This document shows, piece after piece, positions 29,618 to 40,502 of a stretch of DNA of 40,502 nucleotides; the stretch's first letter is position 1; each line of letters opens with the position of its first letter. Position numbers and translations under genes: made by a program. Source of the DNA: a bacterium (lineage in GTDB: Bacteria; Patescibacteriota; Gracilibacteria; UBA1369; PNNO01); NCBI GenBank assembly GCA_021158225.1, contig JAGGUZ010000027.1, positions 1 to 40,502 of the forward strand. Direction: 5' to 3'. Under the pieces are notes generated by a model. The model worked only from the letters and a program-made list of their open reading frames with translations, ran no database searches and was not told where the DNA came from.

Positions 29618-30970
29618 TCATTTTTGTTTGTTTTCAAGAGGTGGTTTAAAGCTAATGGAGATTATTTGTTTTGTATGTCTTGTAATTTTGCAACTATCTG
29701 ATATTGCTTCGTTCCCAATTGCAATAATGTTGTTGGTTTTATCTATAATGATTGGGATTGTATCTCGCTTTTGCGATGGAATTTTTTTGTTAACAAAGAA
29801 GTCTTGTAATTTTTGTCTTCCTCTCATCCCAATATTTTTAAATGTATCTCCATTCTTTTTACCTCTTATATATAAAGGAAATTTACATTTCAAGTAGTCA
29901 AGAAAAATTCCATTAGATAGTTCCTTCGGAACTTTATTTAAAATTTTCAGTAATATTTTTCCGTGAATATACTGAGTTTCTCCCGGGATTTGTAATTTTT
30001 TAAGAAGTATTTTTTTTATTTTATTAGTGTTTCTTATCTCGAACGAATTCGAATTGATTATTAGAATTGTTTTTTGCCCAAATGGGGTTTTTTTTCCTGT
30101 TTTTTCTTCATTAATAATTTTTTGCGCTCTTAAAACAGTATTTTTGGAAAGATTATCTGTTGTCTTGTGGTAGAGATAAAACAGCTTTCTAATAATAAGT
30201 GTTTGTAAAAATTGTTCTGTGTTGTTAAATTTTTTTAAATTTATTTCATATTTCTTTTTCATGTTTTTTTTAATCCAAGTTTCAGCGTTCTTATCAATGA
30301 ATTTTTGTGTTTGAGACATTGTTTTCCAGTTGCGTAAAAATATTTTATCAAAAGAAGGTTGAATCTTTCTTAAAAGAGGAATTATGTTTTTTCTTACATT
30401 GTTCCTTGTATAAGATTCATCAAAATTTGTCTTATCAATACAAAATCTTATTGAATATTTTTTTAAATACGAAAGAATTTCTTTTTTAGACACTCCAAGA
30501 AGAGGTCTCAATATGTTTAACGATTTTACTTGCATTGCGCTTAAGCCTTTTAGTCCAGTTCCTCTCATGAAGTTCATTAAAAAAGTTTCGATATTATCGT
30601 CTAAATGATGGGCGGTTACAATAAACTCGGCATCATATTTTTCTTTTACTTTATTAAGAAATTTATAACGATATTTTCGTGCAATATCTTCTGTATTGCC
30701 TTTTTTATTTTTAATATTCGCACTTCCGATTTCTATAATAACTTTATTTTTATTCGCAAATCGTTTACAAAATTGTTCATCTTTTATACTGTCTTTTCCA
30801 CGTAAATTATGATTGAAATGCGCCAAAATTACTGTAAAGGGATGTAATTTTTGTACTTTTTTAATTTGATAAAAAAGATATACGGAATCCGGTCCTCCGG
30901 AGAATGCTAAAATTACTGTAGTGTTCCGCAATATATTTTGTTTGATATATTTTGAGATACTTGTAATCAT
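29618..30970 (-). CDS. tilS: tRNA(Ile)-lysidine synthase
   Basis: 450 residues. It changes the wobble cytidine of tRNA-Ile(CAU) to lysidine so that it reads AUA. It has the PP-loop SGGPDS at 24-29, HFNHNLRG and AHHLDDNIETFLMNFMRG of the N-terminal ATP-pyrophosphatase domain, a lysine-rich linker, and a C-terminal TilS domain (YIRGKKNGDTFKNIG, KLQDFFVNKKIPSQKRD). It overlaps the RNHCP gene by 4 bases (ATGA) and precedes ftsH. Confidence 0.95.
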   Translation of the reverse strand: MITSISKYIKQNILRNTTVILAFSGGPDSVYLFYQIKKVQKLHPFTVILAHFNHNLRGKDSIKDEQFCKRFANKNKVIIEIGSANIKNKKGNTEDIARKYRYKFLNKVKEKYDAEFIVTAHHLDDNIETFLMNFMRGTGLKGLSAMQVKSLNILRPLLGVSKKEILSYLKKYSIRFCIDKTNFDESYTRNNVRKNIIPLLRKIQPSFDKIFLRNWKTMSQTQKFIDKNAETWIKKNMKKKYEINLKKFNNTEQFLQTLIIRKLFYLYHKTTDNLSKNTVLRAQKIINEEKTGKKTPFGQKTILIINSNSFEIRNTNKIKKILLKKLQIPGETQYIHGKILLKILNKVPKELSNGIFLDYLKCKFPLYIRGKKNGDTFKNIGMRGRQKLQDFFVNKKIPSQKRDTIPIIIDKTNNIIAIGNEAISDSCKITRHTKQIISISFKPPLENKQK

Positions 30971-31290
30971 AAGTTTTTATGTGTACTTAATGCGATAATA
31001 GCATCAATTGAGTCGTCTGTGGCGGTTTTATTTCTCATTTCTTTACCGCATTTTGTGCATTTATGAATGATTATATAACCTTTTGGACCCGATTGATCCA
31101 ATTCTATTGGTTTCATTAGGCTTTTGCAGTCACTTTTTCGGTCTCCGGGAATCTTATTGTCAACATGCTTGGAATAAAGACAATATTTACAATGATTTCT
31201 GCAACTTCCCTTAAGTAAATCATTCTTTCTTCCGCAATTTTCACAAATAAATGTTTCGTTTATCACAATAAAATTTTTTCTATCGTTCAT
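30967..31290 (-). CDS. RNHCP-domain protein
   Basis: 107 residues matching the RNHCP domain along its whole length: FICENCGR (Cys16, Cys19), GSCRNHCKYCLYSKHVD (30s), PGDRKSDC, MKPIELD, KGYIIIHKCTKCGKEMRNKTATDD. The eponymous proline after RNHC is Lys here. The many Cys/His pairs suggest zinc binding. Its function is not established; the domain is common in CPR and some Firmicutes. It is translationally coupled to tilS, hinting at an RNA- or translation-related role (inference). Confidence 0.88.
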   Translation of the reverse strand: MNDRKNFIVINETFICENCGRKNDLLKGSCRNHCKYCLYSKHVDNKIPGDRKSDCKSLMKPIELDQSGPKGYIIIHKCTKCGKEMRNKTATDDSIDAIIALSTHKNL

Positions 31291-31378: not shown

Positions 31379-31960
31379 ATGAACCATACACCAAAAAAAT
31401 TCTCATTTCTTCTGATTCTCTCTTTTTTGTTTGTTCTTGGCGTTGGACTTGGATACGGTTATTACGCTTCCCAGATTAAGGTTAATCAAGATATGTCAGC
31501 TACTCTCGATCAAGAAATCGCCGATATTACAAATCAAATAGAAAAATTGAAATCCGACGATATAGTTTCGGCACAAACAGCTGTTTCGGCGCTTAATAAA
31601 ATTTCTTCAAGTGAAATAGAGTGGTCTAAAGTTTTGGGATCGGTTATAGATATAGCTCCAAAAGATTTAATTGCTGTGCGTGCACTGATTAAGTTCACTT
31701 CGTATAGCGGTTCCGAAGGGGGACGTCTTAATTTAAATGCGCAGACTTATCCATCTAGAGATGTTTATAAACTTTTAAATTCTATTGCAAAAACTATTGA
31801 TGCTTTTAATGAAAACCCGGATTTTAGAGATGCTTTTGTCCCATCAATAAGTAAAAGTGTTTCTGAGGATGGAGAGACTGTTCTTTCGTTTATTTTAAGC
31901 GTTACTTATAAACCTTCATATACAGATGCTGAAGCATCCGCATCTGTTCAGAGAAAATAA
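31379..31960 (+). CDS. PilN-like type IV pilus assembly protein
   Basis: 193 residues: short cytoplasmic N-terminus, one membrane helix (~8-28, FSFLLILSFLFVLGVGLGYGYY), then a coiled-coil (ATLDQEIADITNQIEKLKSDD) and an external alpha/beta domain with WSKVLGSVIDIAPKDL. This is the PilN/GspL-C-like layout of the pilus alignment subcomplex; primary sequence similarity is modest, so the name rests on layout plus the following pilO- and pilC-like genes. PilM and the ATPases PilB/PilT are not in this cluster. Confidence 0.7.
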   Translation: MNHTPKKFSFLLILSFLFVLGVGLGYGYYASQIKVNQDMSATLDQEIADITNQIEKLKSDDIVSAQTAVSALNKISSSEIEWSKVLGSVIDIAPKDLIAVRALIKFTSYSGSEGGRLNLNAQTYPSRDVYKLLNSIAKTIDAFNENPDFRDAFVPSISKSVSEDGETVLSFILSVTYKPSYTDAEASASVQRK

Positions 31961-31981
31961 TTTATTAACTTAACTTTATCA

Positions 31982-32527
31982 ATGTCTATTGAACAACAAC
32001 CCAATAAATCCAATTCTAGCGTAGTAACAATAATTGCTCTTTTGTTATTGATTGTTGCCACTGTGGGCTTATTTATTTTTGTTTTTCCAAAGAAGGATTC
32101 TCTTAATAAGCTGGCCGTCGATATTGCTCAAAAGCAAGTGGAATTAAATAAATCAAAATCACAGCTTGCTAAATTGCAATCCGTTAAAGATTCCTTTAAA
32201 GGTGGAGAAGTAACACAAAAAGATGTATTAAATCTAGTTCCGGATAATGTTGAAGAGGGGAAGATAATTCGTACGCTTGCAAATCATTCAAAGGAAAATG
32301 AGATAACGATTAATTCTCTTAGTTTTGGTATAAACAACAATAAAGATGGAGATTACAGTATCCTTTCTGTTACAACAAATCTTTCAGGAACACACCGTAA
32401 TTTAATCAAATTTCTACAATCTTTAGAAAAGGATGGGCGAAAATTTTCAATTAATACAATGAGTGTTCAGGTTCTTGAAAACGGACTTGAGAATATGAGC
32501 CTTAACATATCAGCATTTTATCTTTAA
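31982..32527 (+). CDS. PilO-like type IV pilus assembly protein
   Basis: 181 residues. One membrane helix (~15-36), a coiled-coil (VDIAQKQVELNKSKSQLAKL) and a PilO-type ferredoxin-like domain (LVPDNVEEGKIIRTLANHSKENEITINSL, GTHRNLIKFLQSLEKDGRKF). PilO pairs with PilN to align the inner-membrane platform. It starts 21 bases after the pilN-like gene and precedes pilC by 23 bases. Confidence 0.8.
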   Translation: MSIEQQPNKSNSSVVTIIALLLLIVATVGLFIFVFPKKDSLNKLAVDIAQKQVELNKSKSQLAKLQSVKDSFKGGEVTQKDVLNLVPDNVEEGKIIRTLANHSKENEITINSLSFGINNNKDGDYSILSVTTNLSGTHRNLIKFLQSLEKDGRKFSINTMSVQVLENGLENMSLNISAFYL

Positions 32528-32550
32528 GAAGTTAACTTTTATTTAAATTT

Positions 32551-33777
32551 ATGTCTAATCAATATATAGATTCTTCGCAGGGTAAAGAGGTATCCAACGA
32601 TAAAGTTAAATCGCTTCTTTCAGAAATCTCAAAGAAAGGAGTAAGAAAAAAGGAAACAGCTGTTTATGGGGTTTACGACAATAGGAATGCTTCACTTTTT
32701 ACAAAAATAAATGATTTTTTAATAGATCACACAAGGATTCCGTTAAAGGAAAAAGCATATTTCTTTCATCTTATGGCTGTGATGATTGATGCCGGTATTC
32801 CGGTGCTTCAGACATTAAGAATCCTTGCCAATAAAACTGAAAATCTTCATTTTCAACGTATATTAAATACACTTGTTTACTCAACTTCAAGAGGGGCTTC
32901 ACTTTCCGATGCGATGGCAAGATTTCCAGATGTATTTACTCCTGCGGATCTTGGCGTTATTAAAGCCGGAGAAGCTGTTGGAAGTTTGAACAAAATGCTT
33001 TTTAGGCTTTCCGAACAAACGGAAAAAAGTCATACATTGCAAATGAAACTTGTTACGGCGGCAACATATCCGCTTATTGTTTTTGTAGTACTTATTGGTA
33101 TTTCGGTGGCAATGATGATTTGGATTGTTCCAACTTTGATTAATCTGTTAAAAGACGGTGGACTTTCAGATGATCAGTTCCCAGTTGCAACAAGGGTATT
33201 AATTGCAATAAGTCATTTCATTGAATGGTATTGGTGGCTTGTTGTTATAGGTAGCGTTATTATTTATTCTTTGTATAAAGTTTATAGAGGGACTGAAGTT
33301 GGAAGATTTCAAAGTGATTATTTTAAACTTAGGATTCCAATTGTCGGAACATTGATTAGAAAAGTTTTAGTACTTCGTTTTGTCAGTTTGCTTGGAATTT
33401 TAATAGAGGCTGGTTTGCCGGTGTTAAAGACTCTTCAAATTATAGCAAGTTCAATAGATAGTGCCCCATATAGAGCAAAAATATGGGAAGTAATACGAAA
33501 AGTACAGGCTGGAGAAAAAATATCGGTGAATCTTGAAAATTCTCCATTCCTTTTTCCGGAAACAATAACTCAAATGATAGGGGTTGGAGAGGATTCGGCG
33601 GCTATTGGATCCATATCACAAAAAATTGCAGATCATTACGATCGTGAAATTGATAACTCGTTAAAAAGATTAACATCACTTTTTGAACCGTTAATGATTT
33701 TATTTGTAGGGCTTATTGTAGCTTTATTGGCACTTGCAATACTTATGCCGATATTCGATTTAACAAAACTTGTTTAA
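32551..33777 (+). CDS. pilC: Type IV pilus inner-membrane platform protein PilC
   Basis: 408 residues with two type II secretion F domains (about 70-195 and 270-400), each showing the family pattern: FHLMAVMIDAGIPVLQTLRIL and FVSLLGILIEAGLPVLKTLQII, with GEAVGSLNKM and GEDSAAIGSI turns. Membrane helices at about 172-192, 222-243 and 378-400. It is the platform around which the pilus ATPase polymerises pilins. Its stop TAA overlaps the next ATG by one base (TAATG). Confidence 0.93.
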   Translation: MSNQYIDSSQGKEVSNDKVKSLLSEISKKGVRKKETAVYGVYDNRNASLFTKINDFLIDHTRIPLKEKAYFFHLMAVMIDAGIPVLQTLRILANKTENLHFQRILNTLVYSTSRGASLSDAMARFPDVFTPADLGVIKAGEAVGSLNKMLFRLSEQTEKSHTLQMKLVTAATYPLIVFVVLIGISVAMMIWIVPTLINLLKDGGLSDDQFPVATRVLIAISHFIEWYWWLVVIGSVIIYSLYKVYRGTEVGRFQSDYFKLRIPIVGTLIRKVLVLRFVSLLGILIEAGLPVLKTLQIIASSIDSAPYRAKIWEVIRKVQAGEKISVNLENSPFLFPETITQMIGVGEDSAAIGSISQKIADHYDREIDNSLKRLTSLFEPLMILFVGLIVALLALAILMPIFDLTKLV

Positions 33778-34394
33778 TGAATCGTTTGAGATCAAAAAAA
33801 AAAGGATTTACATTGATTGAGATACTTATAGTTATCTCAATTATCGGTATGATTATGTTAGTTGGAATCGGTAGTTACGGGGTTGCAAGAAAGAAAGTTG
33901 AATTGGATGTCGCTACGAATTATTTGCAATCGACTATTGTTGAGGCAAGAGATAAAACCAGAGCGGGTTATTATGAACAAGGACAGGATATTTCAAATGC
34001 AAAGTCGTTTTGTTTTGGGTTTTTGATTAAAAAAGGTGAATTTATAAAGCCTCTTAAGACAGATTATGATAGATTAAAAGTTGAGGGATCGCAGTGTGAT
34101 AAACAAAATGCGAAAGAGTTGAATACAACAAATAAACAAAAAAATATTATAGTGAAAAATATTTATATTTACGGGCAGGATACCGGTTCTGAGGCGGAGG
34201 TGTTCTTTGCTCCTCCGGACGCTAATGTTGAAATAGAAAAACAATTGACAGAACAAGATAAACCGGAGCTTAGAGTTGTTTTGGGTTACAATGATTCAGA
34301 TGAGGATTTAGACAAAAGAGAGGTTGTATTTAATATATTAACAGGGGCCGTTTATTCTCAAACTTTTACAACAAAAGATGAAAATCAGCAGTGA
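33777..34394 (+). CDS. Type IV prepilin-like protein
   Basis: 205 residues. Class III signal KKKG/FTLIE with cleavage after Gly10 and the key Glu at mature position 5, then a hydrophobic helix (ILIVISIIGMIMLVGIGSYGVA). The globular part resembles minor pseudopilins (GspH/FimT-like). Prepilin peptidase is not in the window. Overlaps pilC by one base and the next gene by 17 bases. Confidence 0.88.
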   Translation: MNRLRSKKKGFTLIEILIVISIIGMIMLVGIGSYGVARKKVELDVATNYLQSTIVEARDKTRAGYYEQGQDISNAKSFCFGFLIKKGEFIKPLKTDYDRLKVEGSQCDKQNAKELNTTNKQKNIIVKNIYIYGQDTGSEAEVFFAPPDANVEIEKQLTEQDKPELRVVLGYNDSDEDLDKREVVFNILTGAVYSQTFTTKDENQQ

Positions 34395-35028
34395 TACAAA
34401 AAGAGGGTTTTCGATACCAGAAGTAATTGTGGCAATATCTATTCTTACATTGGTTATTCTAACCGCAACAAATCTTCTTGTTTCATCAATGCGCGCCAAT
34501 AGAAATAATGTAGATAGAATCATTGCTTATAATTTGGCACAAGAAGCTTTGGAGGGAGTTAGAAATATTAGAGATGGGAATTGGCTTCAGAATCAGTATT
34601 GGAGAGGGGATTCGAAGTATAATTTCTTTGGAACTCCTTTTAATGAAGATGGTAAATATATTATTAAAAGAAAACATAATTTATTTACGGAGGATCAATG
34701 TAAGCAAGAAATTAATTCTATAAATGATAAAGATATCGTTAAATCTGCGTCTCCTTGGGATATGGTTGCGTATAACGATGAGGCGAGCAAGCTCTATTAT
34801 AAAAATACGAATAATCGTGTTGAGTATGTGCATGAACCGGGACTTAACGATAGTGGGTTTAGACGTTGGGTTGAAATTACAACAATTCATTATGATGGAA
34901 GTGATATCGACAATCAAAATAAATTGAAAATTTTAGTTACAGCTACTGTGGAGTGGATGGAAAATAGCCATCCTAAATCGATGGAAATTTCTACTATTTT
35001 AACCGATTGGAAATCGGGAACAATCTAA
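34378..35028 (+). CDS. Minor pseudopilin (PilV/GspI-like)
   Basis: 216 residues. Prepilin signal KRG/FSIPEV (cleavage after Gly10, Glu at mature 5) and helix VIVAISILTLVILTATNLLVSS. The NLAQEALEGVRNIRDGNW stretch after the helix is typical of PilV/GspI-type minor pilins in CPR and Gram-positive clusters. It starts within the previous gene (ATG at 34378) and is 8 bases from the next. Confidence 0.85.
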   Translation: MKISSDTKRGFSIPEVIVAISILTLVILTATNLLVSSMRANRNNVDRIIAYNLAQEALEGVRNIRDGNWLQNQYWRGDSKYNFFGTPFNEDGKYIIKRKHNLFTEDQCKQEINSINDKDIVKSASPWDMVAYNDEASKLYYKNTNNRVEYVHEPGLNDSGFRRWVEITTIHYDGSDIDNQNKLKILVTATVEWMENSHPKSMEISTILTDWKSGTI

Positions 35029-35036
35029 CTTGAGTA

Positions 35037-35693
35037 ATGATAAAAAAAATACAAACAAAAAAAGGGTTTACATTGATAGAAGTACTTGTTGCGATTACAA
35101 TTTTTATGATTTTCATGACTTCAATAAGTAGTGCGTATTTGAATATTGCGAGAGGGCAAAGAGAGGCAAATGCTGTACGAGTTATTTATTCAGAAATGAG
35201 ATATGTTTTTAATTTGATAGGAGAAGAAGCCAGAGAGAAAACTATTGATTATGGATGTCCCGGAGAATATGGAAGTTGCGCTAAACTCAACAATATTCCA
35301 AAGTCAAATTATTTGGCGCTTATAAGTGATGATGGAACAAAAAGGACAGTGTTTTTGGTTGAAGATGATATTAAGGATGGGATTAAAAAACTTTATTATT
35401 ATAAAGAAGTAAAACAGGTCGGGACTAATGTTTGGAATGTAGCGGATGGGTTTAAGAATGGTTATGAAGAAATTGAACTTAAAAATATAGTTTTGGATAA
35501 CTTTGCTTTTGAAATTTCACCGCTCGTAGATCCTTTTAATCCCGATAATATAGGATGTGGGGCGATACAGTTTCAACCAATGGTTAGCGTGTATACAACG
35601 ATTCGCGGAGTTAACAGTGATGTTTCTAATTTTAAATTGGATTTGCAAACGACCATTTCTTCCAGAGTTTATAATCATCAAACGAATTTTTAA
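35037..35693 (+). CDS. Minor pseudopilin (PilW/GspJ-like)
   Basis: 218 residues. Prepilin signal TKKG/FTLIEV (Gly10, Glu at mature 5) and helix LVAITIFMIFMTSISSAYLNIA. The downstream pattern RVIYSEMRYVFNLIGEEAR resembles GspJ/PilW minor pilins that sit at the pilus tip. The ORF start (ATG 35037) is 8 bases after the previous stop. Confidence 0.85.
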   Translation: MIKKIQTKKGFTLIEVLVAITIFMIFMTSISSAYLNIARGQREANAVRVIYSEMRYVFNLIGEEAREKTIDYGCPGEYGSCAKLNNIPKSNYLALISDDGTKRTVFLVEDDIKDGIKKLYYYKEVKQVGTNVWNVADGFKNGYEEIELKNIVLDNFAFEISPLVDPFNPDNIGCGAIQFQPMVSVYTTIRGVNSDVSNFKLDLQTTISSRVYNHQTNF

Positions 35694-35697
35694 GTAT

Positions 35698-36840
35698 ATG
35701 AATAAAAACAAAACACAAAAAGGTAGTGCACTTATTATTGCACTTTTGATTATGGGAATTCTTATGACACTTGCTCTTGGTCTTAGTAATTTGGTTATTA
35801 GAGAAGTCAGGATAACAAGTGATATTATTAATTCCGGTAAAGCTTATTATTCTGCAGAAGCCGGGGTGGAAAGTGCTTTGCTTGATTTGCATCAGAATCT
35901 TCCCGGATATGAAAATGAGGGGGGAATGTACAAGAAGTTTGGCGGGAAACTGACTTTTGAATACTCAATTAAAAATAAAACGCATACATATCCTTATGTT
36001 GATACTGAAATTATTAATAGAGAAATCGCACAACAATCTCCCAAAAAATATCAATATAATGTGCTTAATTTAAGTGATAGTATTAGTATTCCGTTGTTTA
36101 CGGTTGACGATAATGGGAATGTGGAAAGGATTACCAATTTCAGAGTTGAATTTTTTATAGATGCGGATATAAAACCTGAATTTAGAAATTCGGATATTAG
36201 TGGGCTTGTCGTAGATATGCTTCGTTGGAAAATTACGGGAATCAAAAGAAATTTGGGGAATTCGGGATTTCTTACAGAATCAATAGGAGATTACATGCCG
36301 GTATTTGCAGGGAGTAGCGTTACAGAACCAACGTGTCTTGGAACACAGTCAAGTGCAGTAAATTTTAAAGATCCGGATAGTGATATAATTTATAACCCTA
36401 ATTGTAATAATTTTATTTGGCAGTGGGCACGTGAATCTTATGTTTTTGATCCTCTAACTGGAACTACCCAGTCAAGAGTTTGGGATCCTCAAAATAATCA
36501 GGACGATCCTGTTAATATAGATGAGTTTTTAAAAGGTCATAATACAAACTATTTAACACTTACAAATATTTTCAATCCGGATGTTCTTCAAGATAAACCT
36601 GCGATTACAAAGGCGGAGCAGGCAAAAATCTATTATAGAATTATTGTACCTGATGAAAATCAAAAAATTGTTCGTGAATTTGCAAAAATAAAATCAACAG
36701 GGTCTTATGGAAAATTAAGGCAACAAATAGAAACATTTATTAGACCTGAAGGATTTCTGCCCGTATTCAATTTTTCACTTTACAGGACGGATACACAAGA
36801 TAATAAAGAAGATCCTAGCGGATTTGCACCATCTACTTGA
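35698..36840 (+). CDS. PilX-like minor pilin
   Basis: 380 residues from ATG at 35698, 4 bases after the previous stop. The longer open frame back to 35557 runs over the previous gene and is not used. It has a short signal QKG/SALIIAL (after Gly9), lacking the Glu at position 5 as PilX-type proteins do, helix IIALLIMGILMTLALGLSNLV, and YYSAEAGVESALLDL, the PilX N-terminal signature. The large C-terminal part is unrecognised and rich in Asn/Asp; it may be an adhesive or tip domain. It ends the pilus operon. Confidence 0.82.
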   Translation: MNKNKTQKGSALIIALLIMGILMTLALGLSNLVIREVRITSDIINSGKAYYSAEAGVESALLDLHQNLPGYENEGGMYKKFGGKLTFEYSIKNKTHTYPYVDTEIINREIAQQSPKKYQYNVLNLSDSISIPLFTVDDNGNVERITNFRVEFFIDADIKPEFRNSDISGLVVDMLRWKITGIKRNLGNSGFLTESIGDYMPVFAGSSVTEPTCLGTQSSAVNFKDPDSDIIYNPNCNNFIWQWARESYVFDPLTGTTQSRVWDPQNNQDDPVNIDEFLKGHNTNYLTLTNIFNPDVLQDKPAITKAEQAKIYYRIIVPDENQKIVREFAKIKSTGSYGKLRQQIETFIRPEGFLPVFNFSLYRTDTQDNKEDPSGFAPST

Positions 36841-36890: not shown

Positions 36891-38417
36891 ATGGAGCGTT
36901 TTTATGTGACTACGGCAATTCCTTATGCCAACTCCGCACCACATATAGGTTTTGCAATGGAAGTTATTCAAGCGGATGCACTTGCACGGTATCATCGTTT
37001 AATAGGCGATGATGTGTATTTTTTAACCGGTACTGATGAACACGGAATGAAGATTTTTGATACTGCAAAGGAGCTTGGTTTAACGGCGCAAGAACATGTT
37101 GATATGGTCGCCAAATTAAATATGGATTTAAAAGAACAACTGGGGTTATCTTATGATGATTTTATTCGTACAACATCGGACAGACATAAAATCGGGGCAA
37201 AAGCATTATGGATGAAGTTATTTGAAAAAGGGGATATTTATAAAGGCAAATATGATGGGTTTTATTGTAGTGGATGTGAAGCTTATATAACGGAAAAAGA
37301 TTTAGTTGATGGAAAATGTCCTATTCATGAAAAACCTGCAATTAAATTCTCGGAGGAAAATTATTTTTTTAAACTCTCTAAATATTCAAAAGAAATTGAA
37401 CGATTAATTGAATCTGATGAGCTTTTGATTTTACCAAAATCAAGGAAGAAAGAGTTTTTGAATGTTGTAAAAGAGGGGCTTACCGATGTAAGTTTCTCGC
37501 GTCCCAAAGAGGCACTTACATGGGGGATCGAGGTTCCCAATGATCCAAATCAAACAATGTATGTTTGGTGTGATGCGTTATCGAATTATATTACGGCTTT
37601 GGACTTTGAAAATAATGGAAAACTTTTTGAAAAATACTGGCCGGCTGATGTTCATATTATTGGAAAGGATATTTTAAGATTTCATGCGGGAATTTGGATT
37701 GGAATGCTTTTATCTGCCGGGATAGAAATTCCAAAAGCTATTTATGTTCATGGATTTATAACTTCCGGTGGGCATAAAATGAGTAAATCTTTGCATAATG
37801 TTGTGTCCCCGGTTGATATAGCGGAAGAGTATGGAAATGAAGCCTTGCGTTATTATTTGCTTCGCGAAATTCCAACTACAGATGATGGCGATTTTACGAT
37901 CGATCGCTTTAAAGATCTTTATAATAGTGATCTGGCAAACAATCTTGGCAATTTGGTTAATCGGGTTTTTTCTATGACAAATAGATATTTAGATGGGGTT
38001 GTTCCAAGGAAACCTGTTGAAAATTCCGCTTTTTATGAAAAATATTCCGCCATGTGGGAGCATTATCATGAAGCTATTGAAAATTTTAATCTTAAAAAAG
38101 CTCTTGAAGAAGTTATGCTTCACGTAGATGATGCTAATAAATATATTGAAGATGAAAAACCATGGGTTGTAGCAAAAGAAGATAAAGAAAAATTAAAAGA
38201 TATTCTTTATAACTTACTTGAAATGTTAAGGCATATAGGCGGTGCTCTTTATCCGTTTATTCCAAAGACATCTAAAAAAATTCTTACGGCTCTTGGATGT
38301 AAACTCTTTGATGGTAAATTTGCAGATACGCAACTTTGGGGAAATTTAGAAGAGGGGACAAAGCTTAAAAAACTTGAGCATTTATTTCCACGCATTGAAG
38401 ACTTAAAAAAAAATTAA
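36891..38417 (+). CDS. metG: Methionyl-tRNA synthetase
   Basis: 508 residues, class I synthetase charging both tRNA-Met types. Signature APHIGF at 16-21 (HIGH), zinc knuckle Cys126/Cys129/Cys143/His146 (CSGCE and CPIHE), and KMSKS at 296-300. The anticodon-binding helical domain is at the end. The C-terminal EMAP-type tRNA-binding domain of longer forms is absent, so it is the short type. Stop overlaps the stop of the convergent pilin-like gene by 2-4 bases. Confidence 0.97.
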   Translation: MERFYVTTAIPYANSAPHIGFAMEVIQADALARYHRLIGDDVYFLTGTDEHGMKIFDTAKELGLTAQEHVDMVAKLNMDLKEQLGLSYDDFIRTTSDRHKIGAKALWMKLFEKGDIYKGKYDGFYCSGCEAYITEKDLVDGKCPIHEKPAIKFSEENYFFKLSKYSKEIERLIESDELLILPKSRKKEFLNVVKEGLTDVSFSRPKEALTWGIEVPNDPNQTMYVWCDALSNYITALDFENNGKLFEKYWPADVHIIGKDILRFHAGIWIGMLLSAGIEIPKAIYVHGFITSGGHKMSKSLHNVVSPVDIAEEYGNEALRYYLLREIPTTDDGDFTIDRFKDLYNSDLANNLGNLVNRVFSMTNRYLDGVVPRKPVENSAFYEKYSAMWEHYHEAIENFNLKKALEEVMLHVDDANKYIEDEKPWVVAKEDKEKLKDILYNLLEMLRHIGGALYPFIPKTSKKILTALGCKLFDGKFADTQLWGNLEEGTKLKKLEHLFPRIEDLKKN

Positions 38418-38854
38418 ATTCCGAGTATTATTTGCATTACCCATTTTATAATAAAGTATGAAAATATGATTACTATCATTCCGATGACTCCATATATGAG
38501 TGTATTTTTTGCGAATTCAAGCTGTTGTTGATTGCCTCTTGAGGTTACATACATTATTCCACCCATAGAAATAACAATTACGGCAATTCCACCGGAGAGC
38601 ATTAAGATTGCGCCACCTATAATTTGGATATATGCATTTATAGGATAATCTTCTTCACCTGAACAAAGCTGTGCATTCTTATCCCATTTTCCACCATTTT
38701 TCTCACATTCTTTTTTTGTGGATCCTGCTACGGGTATGTCCGGAGAGTTAAGAGGTTTTAAACTTGGATCGATTGTCCGTTGCGCACTTGTTATGGGAAC
38801 AATGAGCGTTGCTATTACGGTTAGAATCAATAATGTAAGTACTTTTTTAATCAT
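38414..38854 (-). CDS. Pilin-like two-helix membrane protein, paralog 1
   Basis: 146 residues: signal peptide (~1-24, ends TSAQ), a short external part with KKECEKNGGKWDKNAQLC (two Cys flanking GGKWD, likely a disulfide loop), then two membrane helices (~78-103 and ~120-143) joined by a charged loop TSRGNQQQLEFAKNTLIYGVIG. The layout resembles VirB2/TrbC pilins of type IV secretion systems; in CPR such genes sit in tandem. It is the last of five tandem relatives on the minus strand. No conventional T4SS ATPase is in the window. Confidence 0.75.
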   Translation of the reverse strand: MIKKVLTLLILTVIATLIVPITSAQRTIDPSLKPLNSPDIPVAGSTKKECEKNGGKWDKNAQLCSGEEDYPINAYIQIIGGAILMLSGGIAVIVISMGGIMYVTSRGNQQQLEFAKNTLIYGVIGMIVIIFSYFIIKWVMQIILGI

Positions 38855-38861
38855 ATGTTTA

Positions 38862-39302
38862 TTATGGATGGAAAAAATTCAAGTGAGTTACTCCTGTTAC
38901 AATAGCAAGTGATACCGCCGCGATAGCCATAGCCAAAACTGTATAGGTTAAAATACTTTTAGCTTTGGTTAAGTTTTCATCATTTCCTTGAGAAATAATC
39001 ATAAATATTCCGGCTACAAGAAAAGATATGAAAGCAAGTATATTTGTAACAACTAATGCATAATAAGTTATTTGTCCTAAAATGAAGCCTGCATCGTCAT
39101 CTGGGAGTGAAGCAATATAATCCGTTGTTGTCGGATTATCGGTTCCCTCGGTTTCAAATTTATATAGGAGATTGTCAATATTTGGAGCGTTTACAGTGCT
39201 TTTTGGCTCCGTTTTTTTATCCGTGGCAAAAACAGTTTGAGATATCATTAAAAGTGTTGCTGTAAGTAGGAGAATCGTTTTTATTTTTTGATTTTTTATC
39301 AT
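38862..39302 (-). CDS. Pilin-like two-helix membrane protein, paralog 2
   Basis: 146 residues. Signal peptide (~1-26, ends VFAT), an acidic external segment (~30-75), then two membrane helices with the shared loop motif ISQGNDENLTKAKSILTYTV. The same motif (polar-Gly-Asn, then AK and a second helix) recurs in its neighbours. VirB2/TrbC-like by layout. It overlaps paralog 3 by 4 bases (ATGA-type) and lies 7 bases from paralog 1. Confidence 0.72.
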   Translation of the reverse strand: MIKNQKIKTILLLTATLLMISQTVFATDKKTEPKSTVNAPNIDNLLYKFETEGTDNPTTTDYIASLPDDDAGFILGQITYYALVVTNILAFISFLVAGIFMIISQGNDENLTKAKSILTYTVLAMAIAAVSLAIVTGVTHLNFFHP

Positions 39303-39709
39303 TTTATTTCAGTTACATGAAATCCAGTGAAGAAAATAATTTGTACTATTGCAAAGGAGAGCAAGCTTATTCCTAATCCTATTACGGCAAATGTTACCGT
39401 TTTTTTTGCGTTTCCGAATTTCTCTTCATTTCCGTATGCGGTTAAGAATTGAATTGACCCGAATATAATAAATATTACAGAGAGAGTTGTTGCAAGTCCG
39501 GTTACAGTTCTTGCTATTTGCGGTAACAAATTTGATGTTAAATATTTATTTGTATCTTCAAGTTTTTGGTTTGAGTTTGGTCCCGGCAAAGTTGATATAT
39601 CCGGAATTTTAGGAGCTACCGTATCTGCAAAAGAAATAGGCGTAGCAAGTTGTAATGCCATAATGCACATGATTATTAAAGTCGAAAATTTTATTATGGC
39701 TTTATACAA
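39299..39709 (-). CDS. Pilin-like two-helix membrane protein, paralog 3
   Basis: 136 residues with TTG as the likely start at 39709 (the next ATG is inside the signal helix); it overlaps paralog 4 by 8 bases. Signal peptide (~1-28, ends SFAD), proline-rich spacer (KIPDISTLPGPNSNQ), then two helices around AYGNEEKFGNAKKTVTFAVIG. Of the five, this is nearest to the consensus VirB2/TrbC-like pattern. Confidence 0.72.
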   Translation of the reverse strand: MYKAIIKFSTLIIMCIMALQLATPISFADTVAPKIPDISTLPGPNSNQKLEDTNKYLTSNLLPQIARTVTGLATTLSVIFIIFGSIQFLTAYGNEEKFGNAKKTVTFAVIGLGISLLSFAIVQIIFFTGFHVTEIK

Positions 39710-40283
39710 AAAAAGTCGGGTTAATTGTATAAAGAATTAATCCTGATAAGAAGAGGATAACAAGTCCGGTTAACGATTGCATTATTCTGTTTTTATAATT
39801 ATCGATTTTGCCGGAATCTCCGCCTGCCATTGAAATTCCGATTCCACTGTAAACAAGTGTAAATACGGATATTATTCCAATAGTTCCGACCGCCCATAAG
39901 TAAATCATTCTTACATATTTGTATATTAGATCGGAACCTGAATCCGCTTTTATAACTTGAATTCGTTGACAACTTGTTTTTCCCAAGTCTTTATCTCCAG
40001 CTGTATCGCAACTGTCTTGAATTTTACATTTATTTACTTTTGTGCCCGGTTTATTCGGATCTAAAATACTGCAAACTCTAAAGCAATATTTTGCATCCGG
40101 CCCTCCAATCGGTTCTTCTAAAATCACATAGAATCCTCCCGAATTTTCTGAACTGGAAACATCTTTGCAATTAATGTCGCTGTTTGTTCCTTTTGATGAG
40201 GATGAATCTTTAGCAAAAGAATAGGGTGTTAAAGCTCCTATAAAAAGAAATAAACTTATTATTATGATAATCTTTTTGAACAT
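39702..40283 (-). CDS. Pilin-like two-helix membrane protein with Cys-rich domain, paralog 4
   Basis: 193 residues, the longest of the set. Signal peptide (~1-24, ends SFAK), an external domain with six or more Cys (INCKDVS, KYCFRVCSI, NKCKIQDSCD, TSCQRIQ) probably disulfide bonded, then two membrane helices (~122-150, ~165-190) around AGGDSGKIDNYKNRIMQSLTG. The extra domain suggests a surface-exposed variant of the same pilin-like fold. Confidence 0.72.
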   Translation of the reverse strand: MFKKIIIIISLFLFIGALTPYSFAKDSSSSKGTNSDINCKDVSSSENSGGFYVILEEPIGGPDAKYCFRVCSILDPNKPGTKVNKCKIQDSCDTAGDKDLGKTSCQRIQVIKADSGSDLIYKYVRMIYLWAVGTIGIISVFTLVYSGIGISMAGGDSGKIDNYKNRIMQSLTGLVILFLSGLILYTINPTFFV

Positions 40284-40502
40284 TTATATGGTAAAGAATA
40301 ATGATTGAACAAATGTAACTATAATAAGTGACAGAAATACTACGGCGAGTCCGAGAAGTGAGTATAAAATCATCTGTTTTCCTCTTGTTTGAAGTTGTGA
40401 ATTTCCATGAGAGATCATCAATATAAGCCCTCCTGTAATTAAAAAGAGTAAGGCAAGAGACCCTATTACTTTTGTGGCCAATTCAATAAATTTTATAATA
40501 AA
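40284..40502 (-). CDS. Pilin-like two-helix membrane protein, paralog 5, 5' partial
   Basis: The frame is open to the right edge (FIIKFIELATKVIGS upstream of an in-frame TTG at 40481), so the true start lies outside the window. The visible part has two membrane helices joined by ISHGNSQLQTRGKQMILYSLLG, the shared loop of this family. It abuts paralog 4 without a gap, so the cluster is one operon whose promoter is beyond the window. Confidence 0.7.
   Translation of the reverse strand, partial: FIIKFIELATKVIGSLALLFLITGGLILMISHGNSQLQTRGKQMILYSLLGLAVVFLSLIIVTFVQSLFFTI

Follow-up and report, generated by a model that had tools for sequence, protein, structure and literature searches.

Do five tandem pilin-like genes in one array encode variants of a single surface protein, or separate parts of one apparatus? 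The question is raised by the window, by which we mean the whole 40,502-bp contig JAGGUZ010000027.1 (C33) of assembly GCA_021158225.1, from a bacterium of the Gracilibacteria (Patescibacteriota), whose right end carries five such genes. The original prediction, made from the sequence alone, described them as VirB2/TrbC-like membrane proteins and offered both answers. Patescibacteria are a very large group, mostly host-dependent, and a related pilin array is essential in one of their few cultured members; the organism studied here is tiny and probably host-dependent. We find that the array has five members in one fixed order in 48 genomes, with separate orthologous lineages, which strongly favors a multi-subunit apparatus and disfavors a set of variants with different surface-binding parts. 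With such one-to-one retention across an order, the question moves from which variant binds which host to the role of each part.

Five pilin-like genes in one array

The genes are numbered pos1 to pos5 in the direction of transcription, and all lie on the minus strand.

40284-40502, minus strand: pos1 pilin-like gene, 72 aa in the window with the 5´ end cut; PF18895 E 4.8e-7, above the cut-off
39702-40283, minus strand: pos2 pilin-like gene, 193 aa, six Cys, C-terminus ILYTINPTFF; PF18895 E 3e-7
39299-39709, minus strand: pos3 pilin-like gene, 136 aa, external segment rich in Pro and carrying an LPGP motif; PF18895 E 5.5e-6, narrowly over the cut-off
38862-39302, minus strand: pos4 pilin-like gene, 146 aa, acidic external segment; PF18895 E 5.5e-4, below the cut-off
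38414-38854, minus strand: pos5 pilin-like gene, 146 aa, external segment with a Cys pair; PF18895 E 4.5e-7

All five tandem open reading frames (ORFs), and the loop motifs quoted for them in the original prediction, are present in the sequence. Successive ORFs are separated by gaps of 0 and 7 bp or overlap by 4 and 8 bp; because this spacing is operon-like, the five diverged, co-directional copies are likely co-transcribed as a single operon, as had been proposed. Each gene contains one two-helix PF18895 (T4SS_pilin; T4SS, type IV secretion system) domain behind a different external segment. The claim that these external parts differ holds for the Cys pair of pos5, the acidic segment of pos4, the Pro-rich segment of pos3 and the six Cys of pos2, while the external part of pos1 falls outside the window.

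The curated PF18895 cut-off of 26.6 bits was exceeded by four of the five proteins and, among 14 control genomes, was passed in one. Despite its sub-cut-off score (20.4 bits), pos4 was placed with the other array members by both position profile and tree; its profile score for position 4 was 147 bits compared to 61 bits for the next best position, with the window array being part of the training set. Pairwise identity among the five hairpins is low (17-34%), but a comparison of the pos2 and pos3 profiles gave a match over the hairpin with a probability of 97% (E 1e-11). Three of the proteins also match the NCBIfam pilin-like conjugal transfer family NF045849 weakly (best E 2.6e-8, below its cut-off). 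We reject a chance likeness of hydrophobic segments on the strength of the curated cut-offs, the results in control genomes and the pos2-pos3 profile comparison.

Number and order of the genes are fixed across relatives

The comparison drew on 80 named loci retrieved by MetG, together with further loci from whole-genome searches; statements about whole genomes rest on family searches and on the retrieved stretches. Pilin domains were counted in six frames, and arrays cut by contig ends (L046, L058 and L062) were excluded. Exactly five pilin domains were found in 48 of the 49 complete arrays, window included; copy number, proposed as a check in the original prediction, is conserved in related genomes. 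The remaining array (L134) has six domains, with pos1 duplicated. Position profiles built from 35 arrays returned the order 1-2-3-4-5 for all 48 five-domain arrays, 13 of which were outside the training set.

The same separation by position was seen in pairwise comparisons and in a tree. Using the hairpin only, best BLAST hits between genomes fell on the same position for 87, 100, 90, 85 and 71% of the pos1 to pos5 genes, respectively, where 20% would be expected by chance; the values for full proteins were 91, 100, 91, 91 and 78%, and both sets are slightly inflated by a double count of the window array (L008, L125) that was removed in later analyses. In a maximum-likelihood tree of 175 hairpin domains, the number of position changes was four, the minimum, compared to a mean of 106 after shuffling. 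Support was full for pos2, 94/95 for pos4 and 79/75 for pos5, while pos1 and pos3 did not form single branches, as other groups nest next to them; with only 72 columns, the alignment does not resolve the deep branching between positions. Because count and order are fixed and the tree separates the genes by position, we distinguish five dedicated lineages. The five genes thus encode subunits that are ancient, inherited vertically and not interchangeable, which speaks, at least for this order, against the published suggestion that such arrays supply variants.

The external segments are the variable part

Hairpins at the same position in different genomes share 42% identity, compared to 29% for different positions in one array. 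Across all 35 arrays, hairpin identity was 37-50% and that of the external segments 20-24% with many gaps; within a family, the corresponding values were 69-77% and 36-60%. The external domains reach 287 aa. The pos2 proteins always have at least four Cys and end in ILYTINPTFF or close to it, with C39, N188, P189 and F191 invariant in the alignment.

For a few genomes (L061, L069 and L071/L193), pos3 and pos4 are fused into one ORF (L061 8008-9069, L069 4551-5432 and L193 5156-6022). A signal-peptidase-like AxA site follows the second pos3 helix in each of the three (IPIAHA-AV in L061, METAYA-QA in L069 and IPRSYA-AE in L193), which suggests a polyprotein cut by signal peptidase. We keep these fusions as a hint of contact between the two proteins and not as proof, given that the halves may be cut apart. 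An 826-aa ORF in L193 joining a type IV coupling protein (T4CP) and a pilin was dropped as fusion evidence: since the ORF still contains the signal peptide, an indel merging two overlapping genes is likelier.

Related arrangements were observed outside the five-gene arrays. A sister family (f18; L177, L178, L181 and L194) has four domains at the same metG site, comprising a pos2-like gene, a fused two-hairpin gene, labeled pos3+pos4 in most loci with weak scores, and a further hairpin; no pos1 was seen at this site. In family f17 (L157, L158; L175, L176), at a site away from metG, a pos1-like protein of 473-478 aa precedes a pos2-like one. Hairpins of the pos2 type ending in (I/V)L.TINP are found in other classes of the phylum (L159-L173, L183-L190; selected by pos2 similarity, so that they give no frequency), and some arrays of other classes also contain a two-hairpin fused gene (L166, L169).

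Export signals, predicted structure and known pilins

A simple rule, not a trained predictor, detected an N-terminal hydrophobic segment followed by an AxA-like site in nearly all sequences at each position (32-35 of 34-35). The prepilin N_methyl motif had no match in the array proteins, and the signals are of the Sec type. Hydropathy, together with models of pos2 and pos3, gives two hydrophobic helices joined by a short polar loop. Both single-chain models (mean predicted local distance difference test (pLDDT) scores of 81.8 for pos2 and 75.4 for pos3; about 80-94 for hairpin helices) begin with a signal helix and contain a long hairpin of two helices; the pos2 model also has a small beta domain on the external side, in which four strands are at least three residues long. 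Given the short charged loop inside, both termini would be outside. Searches of PDB sequences with the pos2 and pos3 profiles gave nothing significant, and Foldseek gave no match to either model at E <= 0.001.

The proven conjugative pilins (VirB2/TrbC/TraA, PF04956; F, T and R388 pili) share the signal peptide and the two-helix hairpin with loop inside and ends outside; in F pilin, the N- and C-termini face outward and the loop lines the lumen (PMC5018250). They differ in being encoded, as a rule, by one gene per system in VirB4-linked operons, and the array here has no direct sequence match to them. The premise that conjugative pilus operons usually have one pilin holds for diderm conjugation systems, but for Patescibacteria tandem arrays of 2-11 pilin genes with an average mutual identity of 25% have been published (PMC12102498). 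Those VirB2 arrays likewise are tandem, belong to PF18895 and have low mutual identity. The array here differs in not lying beside virB4, in having five genes in a fixed order across an order-level group and in forming an orthologous family at each position, and we found no such one-to-one orthology by position described in the main text of that report. This kind of array is therefore already known in the phylum, but its fixed five-part composition is new as far as the surveyed literature shows. The nearest experimental reference point is one of these arrays, that of Ca. Southlakia epibionticum ML1, whose six pilins are essential for epibiotic growth on the host (PMC12857230).

Two further systems can be likened. 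The archaeal DNA-import pilins CedA1/TedC are also small hairpin pilins with a VirB4/HerA-type ATPase, and Ced/Ups works with type IV pili (PMC9905601); they differ in being archaeal, single and without a fixed array of paralogs, and the likeness is one of description, not of sequence. Bartonella Trw has multiple diverged VirB2/VirB5 copies, which were proposed to serve antigenic variation, while the fixed one-to-one orthology here argues for separate roles.

Contig edge and neighboring genes

The window ends where contig C33 ends, in a 990-kb, 99%-complete genome of 33 contigs, and pos1 is therefore cut. Its 5´ part (signal peptide and start of the external part) was found at C16:1-210, minus strand, directly after a PilT-family ATPase gene above the curated cut-off (C16:240-1250, minus strand); this ORF runs off the beginning of contig C16. 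No sequence overlap of at least 10 bp was found between C33 and C16, and their adjacency is instead based on gene content, orientation and synteny with isolate SW.3.65 (G002). Judged by MetG, the closest named relatives belong to the Patescibacteria, most of them labeled Ca. Peregrinibacteria, and the best match, at 81% identity, is SW.3.65. Its contiguous order is an ftsQ-like gene, DUF1290, two small genes, dus, pilT and pos1-pos5, followed by convergent metG and a type IV pilus run. This synteny, with the gene content, accounts for the missing pos1 5´ end and the upstream ATPase. The suggestion that the operon continues past the right edge is thus correct as to the start of pos1, but the edge is a contig end and not only that of the window. 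Similarly, an ATPase gene does lie just beyond it, as was anticipated together with channel genes, but it encodes PilT and not VirB4, and no channel gene adjoins.

Downstream, the window contains two features of context:

36891-38417, plus strand: metG (methionyl-tRNA synthetase), ORF named by sequence inspection
31379-36840, plus strand: type IV pilus run with a PilN-position protein, PilO, PilC, three prepilin-like proteins and a PilX-like protein

metG is convergent to pos5, their ends overlapping by 4 bp, and the relatives retrieved via MetG have the array beside metG. In the type IV pilus run, profile matches were obtained for PilO (PF04350), T2SSF (PF00482, E 6.9e-51) and, on the first prepilin, N_methyl (PF07963); the remaining genes were named by sequence inspection. 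The true prepilins sit in a separate run (33777-36840). A gene for an RNHCP zinc-ribbon protein (30967-31290; PF12647 E 4.2e-26) is found nearby, and several relatives also have it close to their type IV pilus run.

The array is linked to no single ATPase

As in this genome, a pilT gene was detected within 3 kb upstream on the same strand for 27 of the 41 arrays with enough upstream sequence. Elsewhere the upstream neighbor is RmuC, FtsK or a VirD4/TrwB-like ATPase, and the array stays unchanged while this neighbor differs between lineages. The VirD4/TrwB-like ATPase precedes the array in family f4 (L193 6872-9352, L133 6788-8803, L135 11153-13204); its gene overlaps pos1 by 4 bp in L133 and forms one ORF with pos1 in L193, probably via an indel. 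VirB4 (NF045971, CD1110 family) exceeded its curated cut-off in each of the six genomes tested. In this genome it is a lone gene next to gyrA on contig C6, and it lies beside gyrA in all four neighborhoods read (G000, the present genome, and G002, G046 and G053), with gyrB close by in the three reaching that far (gyrA and gyrB named by sequence inspection). No pilin array was near VirB4 in these four neighborhoods. A near-origin setting of VirB4 has been described for some Patescibacteria (PMC12102498). Because the upstream gene differs and VirB4 lies elsewhere, the tie to any one ATPase is not fixed, while the array itself is a stable unit. At the VirB4 loci of three genomes from different families (L199 6609-8900, L200 6625-8850, L201 5950-8769), we also noted, close by, a large protein that matches no Pfam family significantly.

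A proposed hetero-oligomeric pilus or channel and the alternatives

We hold it somewhat likelier true than false that the array encodes five dedicated subunits of one hetero-oligomeric, Sec-exported pilus or channel of the VirB2-like kind, which probably serves host contact. Each protein would be exported by Sec and lose its signal peptide, and the mature form would be a membrane-embedded helix hairpin whose short charged loop faces inward while its two ends lie outside. Packing of all five hairpins would build the pilus or channel, with the five differing N-terminal segments on the outer face contacting a host or partner cell, and the lone VirB4, PilT or both may energize it. We infer the hetero-assembly, its form as filament or channel, its stoichiometry, its energizing and its role in host contact. 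Several results weigh against this reading. The TrbC/VirB2 profile PF04956 matched no array protein, so that the description of the proteins as VirB2/TrbC-like stands for the PF18895 pilin family, found on all five, and not for that profile; profile comparison with TrbC of plasmid R751 gave nothing, although with a single-sequence template the test is weak; and structural comparison with Foldseek and VIA-align gave generic helix hairpins only, with no conjugative pilin among the matches listed, an absence still compatible with structural similarity to such pilins. No VirB4 lay next to the array in the loci checked, and PilT with the adjoining type IV pilus genes points to another partner. Finally, conserved order alone is no proof of physical assembly, and the filament is our deduction. 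By sequence, the array would be placed in PF18895 and not in PF04956, which lowers the case for its being a VirB2 but not for its working like one.

The weak sequence contact with proven pilins is also what would be expected if the proteins were static two-helix membrane proteins with external domains, forming a scaffold or adhesion complex and never polymerizing into a pilus. External domains of the size found here are large for a packed filament, and in this genome and its relatives the hairpin also occurs three times per chain or joined to PKD repeats, unlike a filament subunit. Pfam and NCBIfam, however, group the hairpin with T4SS pilin-like proteins, and the outside termini of the F pilus imply that external domains can be accommodated (PMC5018250); we consider a static complex somewhat unlikely. 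In most arrays with enough upstream sequence, pilT immediately precedes the array on its strand, and type IV pilus genes lie across metG in the window and several relatives; both would fit an accessory of a type IV pilus, for example a pore for DNA or nutrient uptake with PilT-driven retraction, like Ups and Ced in Sulfolobales, both of which are needed for efficient DNA exchange (PMC9905601). This role is unlikely: PilT is not obligatory, since other lineages have a different gene upstream of an unchanged array, and the adjacency is explainable by synteny alone. In addition, loss of comEC in S. epibionticum had no effect on viability, so competence is not why its array is essential (PMC12857230).

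A narrower form of the pilus or channel reading, a conjugation-type hetero-pentamer with one gene per strand, in which duplication made a homomeric ring heteromeric, is quite improbable. Its only specific support is that five genes match the five strands of the solved F-family pili, in which one pilin forms five-start filaments, equivalent to a stack of pentamer layers (PMC5018250); the six genes of the essential Southlakia array and the four domains of family f18 speak against a strict five-strand rule. We regard as very improbable that the five are variants of one pilin, kept to vary the surface with effects on host range or immune evasion, a proposal made for Bartonella Trw and for Patescibacteria, whose arrays were proposed to give versatility towards hosts (Quinonero-Coronel et al. 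2025, PMC12102498). The faster divergence of external segments than of hairpins and the low identity between members, as in the published arrays (PMC12102498), are consistent with variants. But expansion, shrinkage and recombination between species would then be expected, and instead all but one of the complete arrays have five genes in the same order, positions never mix in the tree, and members of one array are less alike than same-position genes across genomes. For this order, the variant reading is already largely refuted.

Other PF18895 loci in the genome

The genome contains 16 PF18895 domains: the five of the array, seven at a second locus (locus B) and four further single matches, including a weak one on contig C23. 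Totals in relatives are similar, mostly 13-16 at E 0.001. The sub-threshold PF04956 matches in the genome were only to locus B proteins (E 1.5e-5). Locus B lies on contig C9 (L009, 1040-7654; in SW.3.65 on contig C1, L136, 6608-13238) and is a second conserved locus. Two of its ORFs (370 and 315 aa) each fuse three hairpins, and a protein of 1494 aa combines a single hairpin with about seven PKD domains; further PKD proteins follow. VirB6 in Gracilibacteria is reported to escape profile searches (PMC12102498), and CedA, a VirB6-like channel, reportedly has an N-terminal region in common with the pilin CedA1 (PMC9905601). The three-hairpin proteins may thus be considered candidate VirB6 proteins, and work on the array also offers a place to look for a VirB6 unseen by profiles in this class. 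Judged by PF18895 hits, the same locus B set is found in all ten genomes listed.

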